From NCBI RefSeq assembly GCF_005543295.1, contig NZ_SRSG01000013.1, positions 1 through 64,000 of the forward strand: a stretch of 64,000 bases of DNA, written 5' to 3'. The notes below the pieces were generated by a model. It saw nothing but the letters and a program-made list of their open reading frames with translations, was not told the DNA's origin and did not search any database. The translations under genes were made by a program, and so were the position numbers. The DNA comes from Halalkalirubrum salinum. Its GTDB lineage: Archaea; Halobacteriota; Halobacteria; Halobacteriales; Haloferacaceae. This document shows positions 52,873 to 57,338 of this stretch, piece by piece (the first letter of the stretch is position 1; each line of letters opens with the position of its first letter).

Positions 52873-53328
52873 TCATCCGTTTTCGTGTCGTCGGAGCGCA
52901 GCAGCGATCGACGACGGCGTCGCCCCCTGGCCGTCTCGAACGCGGTGATCCGGGACAAAAAGCGGCACCGGATTCTCTCGGAGTGCGTCCTGAACCGTCT
53001 CGCGGACACCGTCCTCAGCGGGATCGAGCCCGGCGAAGCTGGCGAGTCGATCGATCGTCACAGTTCGCCCGGAGGGAATCTCTCGAAGCGTCTCTAACAC
53101 CCTGCGCTTGTCCGTCGGCATCGTGAGCGCGATGGAAATCTCAGTGAGTCCCTCCCGCTCGCCAGCGAGATAGGCATCGACGGCGTCGAGATAGTCGTGT
53201 GCAACGGAGGCATCTTCCGGAACAGCATCGGGAAACGAGACGCTAATAACTTGACCACCGACAATCCCAAGCTGTACGACCCGTCCGATCGACTCTAACT
53301 CTCGAGCGTAGACGCCCGCGTCTTTCAT
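52873..53328 (-). CDS. MGMT-like protein without the catalytic cysteine
   Basis: The 151-aa protein has the C-terminal fold of O6-alkylguanine-DNA alkyltransferase: LREIPSGRTVTIDRLASFAG (helix-turn-helix), the TVQDALRENPVPLFVP loop and then DHRV where PCHRV is expected. The active-site Cys is Asp127 (PDHRV), so direct alkyl transfer is not possible; alkyltransferase-like proteins instead flag damage for nucleotide excision. Those usually have Trp here, so this is a different class. I use the ATG at 53328. The N-terminal 50 residues are degenerate. Confidence 0.8.
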   Translation of the reverse strand: MKDAGVYARELESIGRVVQLGIVGGQVISVSFPDAVPEDASVAHDYLDAVDAYLAGEREGLTEISIALTMPTDKRRVLETLREIPSGRTVTIDRLASFAGLDPAEDGVRETVQDALRENPVPLFVPDHRVRDGQGATPSSIAAALRRHENG

Positions 53329-53379
53329 ATCCGGCGTTGGCCGCTCACCGGGCTTGAACCTTCCACCTCGGACGCAAGG

Positions 53380-53387
53380 CTTTTGTA
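53380..53387 (+). promoter_or_regulatory. TATA-like box of the trpCBA operon
   Basis: CTTTTGTA lies 26-33 bases before the trpC ATG at 53413. Its last bases overlap the first TGTACA box, so binding there would block transcription initiation. Confidence 0.5.
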
Positions 53388-53409
53388 CATATCCGTCCAT
53401 TAATGTACA
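53384..53409. promoter_or_regulatory. pair of TGTACA TRP boxes over the trp promoter
   Basis: TGTACA occurs at 53384-53389 and again at 53404-53409, 20 bases apart centre to centre (two helical turns). Together they form the 7-bp inverted repeat TGTACAT...ATGTACA. TGTACA is the known consensus bound by the archaeal tryptophan repressor TrpY of Methanothermobacter. The first box overlaps the TATA region and the second the expected transcription start. Confidence 0.55.
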
Positions 53410-53412
53410 CTA

Positions 53413-54327
53413 ATGGACGATACTGAGGAGGCACTCGCACCGGCAGTGCGTGAGATCCTCGACTCTGCGCGGACGCGCCCGGGCGGAGACGAACCACTGT
53501 CTGTCGAGGCCAGATCACTTCCCGATGCGTTCGAACGCGCGGAGTCGGACGGACGAGTCCCAATACTCGCGGAGGTCAAGCCAACGAGTCCCACGACCGA
53601 CGGGACGAACGACGGCGACCCCGTTGCACTGGCGAAAACAATGGTCGACGGCGGTGCAGCGGCGCTGTCGGTGCTCACCGAGCCCGATCACTTCGGGGGA
53701 TCGATCGATAATCTCGAACGGATCAGGGCGGCGGTTGACGTGCCGGTCCTGCGGAAGGACTTCATCCTTCGAGAGGAGCAACTTGATCTCGTCGAGTCCG
53801 ATGTCGTGTTGCTCATCGTGCGGTTTCTCGATGAAGCGACTCTCTCGGAGTTGATTGAGGCCGCCAAGGCCCGTGGGTTTCAACCGCTCGTCGAGGTACA
53901 CACCGAGCCCGAATTGGAACAAGCAATCGACGCGGGTGCGTCCATCATCGGCGTCAACAACCGCGACTTGGCGCGACTGGAGGTCGATCTGGCGACGTTC
54001 GAGGCGATCGCACCGCAAGCCCCAGAGGACGTGTTGTTGATCGCCGAAAGCGGAATTTCGACCCCTGCTGAGGTCCGTCGAATGATCGACGCCGGCGCGG
54101 ACGGCCTGCTTGTCGGTACCGCAATAATGGACGGCGATCCTCGCGAAAACACTCAACAGCTCGTCGGTGCAATGCACACCGACAGCGCGGCTAAAACCAC
54201 GGACCAAGTGGATAGAATTGGCAAGAACGACGGAGGCGGGGAAACAGCGGTCAATGAAGACGGGCCAACACAATCAAAAGCGCGCGAACCTGAGACAGAG
54301 ACATACAACACCGAGACACAATCATGA
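53413..54327 (+). CDS. trpC: indole-3-glycerol phosphate synthase
   Basis: TrpC closes the pyrrole ring of indole-3-glycerol phosphate in tryptophan synthesis. The TIM barrel has the expected Lys and Glu in [11 protein letters not shown], the loop [34 protein letters not shown] and LIAESGIST. Unusually, the conserved barrel ends near residue 250 and is followed by a hydrophilic, Thr/Glu/Asn-rich tail of roughly 55 residues (total 304 aa). Its stop overlaps trpB by 4 bases. TATA box and TRP boxes precede it. Confidence 0.95.
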
Positions 54328-55565
54328 GCACTGACGGAAAATTTGGCGACTACGGCGGACAGTACGTGCCGGAAGCGTTGATGCCGGCGATCGAAGAACT
54401 GACCGAGGCGTACGAACAGTACGTCCTCGAAAACAAAGACGGCTTCATGGACGAATTCCGCGACCGACTCACGGACTTCGGCGGCCGACCGACACCGTTA
54501 CAGCGGGCCGATCGACTCTCAGAGCGATACGATCTCGACATCTATCTCAAACGAGAGGATCTCCTACACGGCGGCGCACACAAGCTGAACAACGCGCTCG
54601 GGCAGGTGCTTCTCGCGAAGTACATGGGCAAAGAACGAATCATCGCCGAAACCGGCGCGGGCCAACACGGCACCGCGACGGCAATGGCGGCGGCGCATCT
54701 TGACATGCCATGTACGATCTACATGGGAGAACGGGACATCAACCGCCAGCGGCCCAATGTCTTCCGGATGAAGCTCAACGGCTCAGAGGTCAAGCCGGTC
54801 ACCACGGGGCGAGGGACGCTCAAAGAGGCGATCAGTGAAACAATGCGCGACTGGGCGACCACGGTTGAGACGACCCACTATGTTATCGGTTCAATTGTCG
54901 GCCCACATCCATTCCCGGTGATGGTTCGGGATTTCCAGTCAGTCATCTCCAAGGAGGCCCGCGAGCAGACGATCGAAAAGACCGGCTCGCTGCCAGATTC
55001 GGTGATCGCCTGCGCGGGTGGTGGCTCGAACACGATGGGTTCGTTTGCGAAGTTCGTTGACGACGAGTCGGTTTCGCTCTACGCGGTGGAGGCGGGCGGC
55101 TCGTCGCTGCGCGTCGACGAGGACACCGGCGTCGCGCCGAACTCCGCGTCGCTGTCGACGGGCAACGAGGGCGTGCTCCACGGCGCACGGACCAAGCTCT
55201 TACAGGACACCGCCGGACAGATCATGGAGTCACACAGCGTCTCCTCAGGGCTCGATTACGCCGGCGTCGGACCCGAACTCGCGTATCTTGTCGACACCGA
55301 TCGCGTGACGCCAGTGACAGTCGACGACGACGCGGCGCTTGAGGGGTTCCACCGACTCTCACAAACAGAGGGGATTATTCCGGCACTCGAGACCGCCCAC
55401 GCGTTTGGGTATCTCGAAGAGCACCACGAGGAGCTTTCAGGAACCGTCGTCGTCAACGTTTCCGGTCGCGGCGACAAGGACCTGGAGACGGTGATCGAAG
55501 AAACAGACGCCCGAGACGTCCCGAACGCGCCCGACATGTCGATGTTCTCCGGAGGTGGGATGTGA
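54324..55565 (+). CDS. trpB: tryptophan synthase beta chain
   Basis: TrpB joins indole and serine to tryptophan with PLP. The Schiff-base Lys is in the segment [15 protein letters not shown] and the phosphate-binding loop is [25 protein letters not shown] and [12 protein letters not shown] are further family signatures, and the 413 aa length is normal for the classical TrpB1 type. It overlaps trpC by 4 bases and trpA by 1-4 bases, so all three genes are translated from one mRNA. Confidence 0.97.
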
Positions 55566-56452
55566 TGGCCGGACAGCGCCGCTCTGCTGTCGATCGATCG
55601 GCCAACAGCGACCTCGCAGCCGCCTTCGAAGATGGCTCCGCATACATTCCGTATCTCGCGGTCGGCGATCCATCCTACGAGCGTTCGAAGGCGTACGTCG
55701 AGGCGCTGGCCCGCGGTGGCGCTGATATCATCGAGCTCGGCTTGCCGTTCTCTGAGCCGATCGCCGAGGGCCCGACGATCCAGAATGCGATCGTTCGTGC
55801 GCTCAAAGGTGGTATGAGCCCCGAGTTGTTTTTCCAGTTCGTCGAGGAGCTCGACGTCGACGTCCCGCTGGTCTGTATGACGTACTACAATCTCATCTAC
55901 CAGTACGGCCGGACAGCCGGCGACGGTCCTGGCCCAGAGGCGTTCGTCGAGAAGGCGGCGTCCGCTGGGATCTCGGGGTTCGTGGTTCCGGACCTACCCG
56001 CCGAAGAAGCCGATCCGCTTCGGGCTGCCTGCGACGAGCACGGTCTCGATCTGATCTTTATTGTCGCACCGACGACCGAGGGCGATCGCCTCGAGCGGAT
56101 GATGCAGCGCGTCTCGGGCTACGTATACGTGCAAGCGCGGCTCGGAACGACGGGGGCACGATCGGACGTCTCCGATCAGACGACTGCGAGCCTCGATCGG
56201 CTCGCCGACTACGATCTTCCAAAGGCGGTCGGCTTTGGGATCTCCGGCGGAGAACAGGCCGAACGGATCGTTGCCAACGGCGCGGATGGGATCATCGTCG
56301 GCTCAGCGCTCGTCGACATCGTCGCAAACGGGGTCGAAAACGACGAACCAACTGAGGCCGTCGCCGATCGCCTCGAAACCCTCTCACGCGAGCTCAAAGC
56401 CGGCGCACAGCGCGGCGACGAGGCGCGACAGGCAAACGTCGACGCGAAGTAG
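55562..56452 (+). CDS. trpA: tryptophan synthase alpha chain
   Basis: TrpA cleaves indole-3-glycerol phosphate to indole and glyceraldehyde phosphate. The catalytic Glu is in [11 protein letters not shown]; the second catalytic acid, Asp60 in the Salmonella enzyme (ADGPTIQ), is here Glu in AEGPTIQ, a conservative change I believe is common in haloarchaea. Other landmarks are [13 protein letters not shown] and the phosphate loop [13 protein letters not shown]. Two overlapping ATG codons make the start 55562 or 55565 (296 or 295 aa). Confidence 0.95.
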
Positions 56453-56543: not shown

Positions 56544-57338
56544 ATGACAGCAGGACACGCGACACGACTCACACGGATTTCGACAGACGGCAACTACCTC
56601 ATTGTCCCGATGGACCACGGGATTACGATGGGCGCAGTGAAAGGATTGAAAGACATCGAATCGACGATCGACGGCGTTACTCGCGGCGGCGCAGACGCGG
56701 TATTGACGCAGAAAGGAATTGCACCACGGGTCCATCCGAATAAAAACGAGGCAGGCTACATCGTGCATCTGAACGCCTCGACGACGATCGGCCCGGACGA
56801 GAACGACAAGCGCCTGACTGGGACAATCAAAGAGGCGATTCGGGCGGGCGCGGATGCGGTGTCATTTCATATCAACGTTGGATCGAACTACGAGCCACAA
56901 CAGATCGAGGAGCTTGCGTCGCTCACTGCTGACGCCGCTGATTACGGCATTCCGGTGTTGGCAATGGCGTACGCGCGCGGACCAGGGATCGAAGGCGACG
57001 AGCCAGAAAAGCTCGGACACGCGGTGCGACTCGCTGAGGAACTCGGCGCGGACATCGTCAAGACCGGCTACAGTGGCGATGGCGAGAGCTTCGAACACGT
57101 CTGCACCTCCACGCGACTGCCGGTCGTGATCGCCGGCGGCTCGAAGGGCAGCGATCGCGAGACGATCGAGATGGTCCGTGGCGCGATGGACGGCGGCGCG
57201 GCTGGCGTCTCGATGGGTCGATCAATCTTCCAACACGACGACCCCGAAGCGATCACGAGGGCCGTCTCCGCGGTTGTCCACAAGGATCTCGAGGTATCAG
57301 CCGCCCTTGAGGCGGCTGGATTGGCGATCGAAGCGTAG
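56544..57338 (+). CDS. 2-amino-3,7-dideoxy-D-threo-hept-6-ulosonate synthase (AroA')
   Basis: This class I aldolase-like enzyme makes the 6-deoxy-5-ketofructose-derived precursor in the archaeal route to dehydroquinate, replacing DAHP synthase. The active-site Asp is in IVPMDHGITMG, and the Schiff-base Lys is in DIVKTGYSGD. VIAGGSKGSDRETIEMV is the phosphate-binding loop. Length 264 aa matches the family. The assignment is favoured over fructose-bisphosphate aldolase because aroB' follows 73 bp downstream. Confidence 0.88.
   Translation: MTAGHATRLTRISTDGNYLIVPMDHGITMGAVKGLKDIESTIDGVTRGGADAVLTQKGIAPRVHPNKNEAGYIVHLNASTTIGPDENDKRLTGTIKEAIRAGADAVSFHINVGSNYEPQQIEELASLTADAADYGIPVLAMAYARGPGIEGDEPEKLGHAVRLAEELGADIVKTGYSGDGESFEHVCTSTRLPVVIAGGSKGSDRETIEMVRGAMDGGAAGVSMGRSIFQHDDPEAITRAVSAVVHKDLEVSAALEAAGLAIEA

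Follow-up and report, generated by a model that had tools for sequence, protein, structure and literature searches.

A 10-bp-phased row of TGTACA-type half-sites over the haloarchaeal trpC promoter and its likely TrpY-family regulator

The promoter of trpC in Halalkalirubrum salinum lies in the window (the whole 64,000-nucleotide stretch of contig NZ_SRSG01000013.1 analysed here) and carries two copies of TGTACA, which is reportedly, from work of 2005, the consensus of the archaeal TRP box. This raises the question of whether the two copies form an operator for tryptophan biosynthesis and, if so, which protein might read it. An earlier note on this DNA had placed both hexamers over the trpCBA promoter, and they do lie there: they begin at 53384 and 53404 and sit on the TATA element and the trpC start.

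The half-site row at the trpC promoter

The genes and elements of the locus, with the conservation of each half-site, are as follows.

53373-53387, plus strand: BRE/TATA-like element of trpC, CGCAAGGCTTTTGTA, overlapping half-site 1; a putative TATA element by its position
53384-53389, no strand assigned: half-site 1, TGTACA (box 1 of the earlier note); its GNNC core (-28) is kept in 100% of the 55 relatives
53394-53399, no strand assigned: half-site 2, CGTCCA, unnoticed in the earlier note; its GNNC core (-18) is kept in 91% of the 55 relatives
53404-53409, no strand assigned: half-site 3, TGTACA (box 2 of the earlier note); its GNNC core (-8) is kept in 98% of the 55 relatives
53414-53419, no strand assigned: possible half-site 4, TGGACG, in trpC codons 1-3; core at +2 in 87% of the 55
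53413-54327, plus strand: trpC, indole-3-glycerol phosphate synthase, haloarchaeal type (NF041303, 419.6 bits)
54324-55565, plus strand: trpB, tryptophan synthase beta (TIGR00263, 581 bits)
55565-56452, plus strand: trpA, tryptophan synthase alpha (TIGR00262, 245 bits)
56544-57338, plus strand: 2-amino-3,7-dideoxy-D-threo-hept-6-ulosonate synthase of the OE1472F type, standing fourth in the operon (TIGR01949, 359 bits)

A 3-dehydroquinate synthase II is encoded after the aldolase, downstream of trpC-trpB-trpA, and Halobacterium salinarum has the same operon layout, trpCBA-OE1472F (PMC4162585).

The two TGTACA copies (53384-53389 and 53404-53409) have a start-to-start distance of 20 bp, and the second stops 3 bp short of the trpC ATG at 53413; the trpC message is probably leaderless. 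Half-sites with a GNNC core lie at -29, -19, -9 and perhaps +1 relative to the ATG, in exact steps of 10 bp, and the two boxes recognized earlier are therefore the first and third members of a row. The earlier note's description as two boxes two helical turns apart needs correction: with half-site 2 lying between them and a fourth possibly following, the trpC operator comprises three to four half-sites in 10-bp phase and is larger than the pair. The fourth is uncertain because the ATG and the Asn/Asp codons alone yield much of its core.

Divergently from trpC, the minus strand encodes an Ogt/MGMT-like protein (PF01035; window positions 52873-53328), in which Asp takes the place of the active-site Cys (VPDHRV versus PCHRV). 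The Asp form was present in 37 of the 38 relatives with a readable motif upstream of trpC, and the protein is probably, to judge from this motif, an alkyltransferase-like protein without transfer activity.

Conservation and the extent of the regulon

The trpC gene was detected in 59 of 60 haloarchaeal genomes, and the DNA upstream of it was read in all 59. In 55 of them the array keeps a constant distance to the ATG; the percentages above were taken from this set, so that the absence of the pair from close relatives, which the earlier note had set against its own reading, was not seen, and the boxes are conserved far beyond such relatives. The consensus of the element in the 55 genomes is CGCAAGnCTTATGTACAnATnCGTnCATTAnTGTACAnnnATGAAC. 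Among all offsets from -50 to +9, none beyond -28, -18, -8 and +2 has a GNNC in more than 40% of these genomes, and positions of the array carry 1.21 bits of information on average, versus 0.17 at -60 to -41; the DNA flanking the array is unconserved among haloarchaea. As for the four exceptions, three genomes carry the array before trpB (G043, G045 and G058) and in one (G049) the site falls at a contig end. The trpB array of G058 reads TGTACA-N4-AGTACA-N4-TGTACA-N4-GATACA, and its fourth unit is non-coding. The array goes with the trp genes even when it is absent before trpC.

Alignment of the DNA before trpD, likewise suggested in the earlier note, revealed a sister array, TGTACN-N4-TGTACA-N4-AANACG-N4-NGTACA, in 55 of 56 genomes including that of H. 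salinum (46 by automatic alignment and nine further by eye), with the same 10-bp phase as at trpC and before the first gene of trpDFEG. Forty-two of the 46 automatically aligned arrays begin 47-50 nt before the ATG, and the third unit, otherwise weak, is a good GTACA in G043 and G058. At trpD, a separate TATA element precedes the array, and a GGTG motif resembling a ribosome-binding site comes after it; the trpC and trpD operators share a common phase and differ in placement relative to the promoter.

A sequence model built from the trpC element was run on 40 genomes, and its promoter matches were confined to trp genes. In H. salinum it matched at trpC and once before trpD (contig C62), where trpD heads trpD-F-E-G (F, E and G were named from their sequences, without a profile scan). 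The remaining two matches in this genome were the trpC array on the opposite strand and a weak match on contig C22, which lies within a gyrB-like reading frame and was rejected as a further target. A scan of 117 genomes of the order for TGTACA-N5-GTACA (30 sites with their loci examined) returned the trpC, trpD and trpB promoters and sites mostly within reading frames, and no further convincing promoter target in haloarchaea was found among these 30 loci; a few intergenic sites (for example, L288 and L304) had no gene assigned. Because the scan gave trp promoters and mostly in-frame sites, the haloarchaeal regulon looks limited to two operons. Across the phylum, a strict phased triplet matched 44 times in 247 genomes, with one tandem repeat contributing 11 of the matches, versus 3 for the reversed control, and such triplets precede trpD (L198 and L199), an aromatic-pathway aldolase (L200-L202) and trpC of additional haloarchaea.

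Published expression data bear on the same genes. In H. salinarum deprived of aromatic amino acids, all seven tryptophan-branch genes were induced, in the operons trpCBA-OE1472F and trpD1FE1G1, and the neighbouring OE1475F was not (PMC4162585). The two induced operons are the two that bear arrays here, the arrays being read in the haloarchaeal genomes examined. The aroK, aroA and aroC genes were likewise induced (PMC4162585), yet no arrays were found for them in the haloarchaeal genomes scanned, and a second layer of control over the aromatic pathway is therefore likely.

A TrpY-family protein encoded away from trp

The earlier note had proposed to look for a TrpY-like protein, and an ACT-domain search located a single one in the H. 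salinum genome (G000:C8:79843-80340). This protein matched NF053754 (NCBIfam TrpY_fam) with 237.9 bits (cut-off 180) over its full length, residues 2-164 aligning with positions 1-163 of the 163-position model. Its putative C-terminal ACT segment scored 26.5 bits with PF01842 when the protein was taken alone (cut-off 27) and 27 bits in the genome search, in which the frame included its neighbours. The family is present in 57 of 60 relatives, in all 47 of good quality and in 240 of the 247 genomes of the phylum, and the family model also matches in Haloferax volcanii; the protein and the box arrays have the same broad range. A search by sequence gave no solved structure for the family.

The gene follows hisA- and hisB-like genes (L120:1-2001) and is unlinked to trp. 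No phased boxes were found upstream of it in the 25 genomes read, and autoregulation of the haloarchaeal gene through boxes is therefore not expected. HisB-like C-termini precede the gene in several relatives.

In Methanobacteriaceae (relatives of Methanothermobacter thermautotrophicus, which itself was not in the set), the TrpY-family gene is divergent from a trpE-like gene, with 10-bp-phased boxes between them, such as TGTACA-N4-TGTTCA and TGTATA-N4-TGTACA; Methanothermobacter has been published with this same layout. Over its length, the haloarchaeal protein shares 40% identity with the methanobacterial one; VDRR and G149 are invariant, and SIRQ is almost invariant. Mutants of Methanothermobacter TrpY have reportedly been studied at G149. 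Haloarchaea thus resemble the TrpY/TRP box system of M. thermautotrophicus (trpY-trpEGCFBAD) in having TGTACA boxes over trp promoters and a regulator of the same family (NF053754), and they share the 10-bp box phase with the trpY-trpE region of Methanobacteriaceae. They differ in that their rows are longer (3-4 boxes), two separate operons carry arrays, and the trpY-family gene stands after hisA-hisB, unlinked to trp and without boxes of its own. The difference in gene arrangement is one of layout and not of box or protein family.

In Methanothermobacter, TrpY acts together with tryptophan as a repressor of trpE, and haloarchaeal TrpY homologues have been described as unexamined (PMC6737238). 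Membership of the family does not by itself prove such a role, because a Thermococcus homologue that is 42% identical to the Methanothermobacter protein does not regulate trp (PMC6737238). In Thermococcus kodakarensis, Tar (TK0271) likewise controls trp and aro transcription in an archaeon (PMC6737238), but it is an activator of the aro, trp and tyr/phe operons, and the TrpY homologue of that organism is without trp regulation.

Readings of the arrays

We propose, with a probability of about 0.8, that the arrays are the operator of an unlinked TrpY-family repressor whose units bind side by side and block initiation when tryptophan is present. The sequence checks set out in the earlier note favour its reading of the boxes. 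The protein, encoded elsewhere, would combine a DNA-binding N-terminal half with the C-terminal ACT segment. With tryptophan plentiful and serving as the corepressor, its units would bind next to each other, perhaps cooperatively, on half-sites 10 bp apart, and would come to lie on one face of the DNA because the half-sites are one helical turn apart. At trpC, the row of repressors would cover the TATA element and the start of the leaderless message and would thereby prevent loading of TBP/TFB or of RNA polymerase, and at trpD, where the sister array starts just downstream of the TATA element, initiation would be blocked as well. The two arrays would jointly control the seven tryptophan-branch genes and the first aromatic-pathway aldolase. 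What speaks against the TrpY reading is that the haloarchaeal gene is linked to hisA-hisB and not to trp, that it lacks boxes of its own, that binding is predicted from sequence, and that another regulator, LrpA2, responds strongly to aromatic amino acids.

That regulator is the basis of the main rival, in which the arrays are a real operator but serve an Lrp/AsnC-type protein such as LrpA2 (trh1) that would sense aromatic amino acids; oligomers of this type can bind phased palindromes too. Expression of lrpA2 rose 14.9-fold when H. salinarum lacked aromatic amino acids, and LrpA2 was for this reason proposed as a regulator (PMC4162585). TGTACA is, however, the TrpY box, the DNA separating trpY from trpE in Methanobacteriaceae has boxes in this phase too, and the TrpY family is as broadly distributed as the arrays. 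We know of no TGTACA specificity of LrpA2 or other Lrp-type regulators of Halobacterium, and we regard assignment of the arrays to such a regulator as unlikely.

Considerably less probable is a reading in which the conserved DNA is no more than the core promoter (BRE, TATA and initiator) of a leaderless operon with strong expression. In its favour, box 1 and the TATA element overlap, box 3 is at the start region, and the BRE/TATA part at -40 to -30 is conserved too, with a mean of 1.4 bits per position in the 55 genomes. By contrast, the half-site at -19 is outside any core promoter element and the phased boxes of trpD are downstream of a separate TATA element, and a core promoter alone was rejected on these two grounds; in addition, the trpY-family gene has no such array in its own promoter, and the promoter matches of the trpC-element model do not extend beyond trp genes.

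The earlier note had called a random TGTACA pair at 20 bp improbable, which is stronger than the counts allow. The exact pair TGTACA-N14-TGTACA at trpC is the sole occurrence in the 3.4-Mb genome (control 0), but the hexamer is over-represented in the window, with 18 copies versus 4.7 expected (0 of 100 shuffles reached 18), and at this density 0.27 such pairs would be expected per genome, which makes the pair by itself weak evidence. Several of the window copies fall within reading frames, and composition or codon choice may therefore account for the excess. The evidence for an operator is position plus conservation and not the rarity of the pair. Despite the abundance of the hexamer, chance as the source of the pair has almost no probability left and was rejected, as its position and spacing are constant in 55 haloarchaeal genomes of many families amid unconserved flanks and the array recurs before trpB and trpD.

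Under the TrpY reading, we somewhat favour the broader view that TrpY with 10-bp-phased TGTACA arrays is an old control of tryptophan and aromatic synthesis common to haloarchaea, further members of their phylum and Methanobacteria, and that haloarchaea would have exactly two target operons, side-by-side binding of several units, a gene moved out of the trp cluster and a lost autoregulation. In the literature searched, which included few subscription journals, we came across no account of TRP boxes for haloarchaea, and an earlier one is possible. Amino-acid sensing in haloarchaea is little understood, and a likely regulator, a putative site and a two-operon regulon can now be assigned. The regulon is testable at once in H. 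volcanii, and the arrays might provide a natural tryptophan-repressible promoter for halophile genetics.

Elsewhere in the phylum, phased TGTTCA/TGTACA triplets at L190, L192 and L193 stand near a gene for a membrane protein without a Pfam or NCBIfam match, which at L190 begins about 60 bp downstream of the triplet; this protein is a candidate for tryptophan or aromatic uptake. At L189, a phased triplet (at about 1501) directly precedes a gene whose product has two ABC ATPase domains and by eye resembles an energy-coupling factor; this gene might go with the membrane protein of L190.
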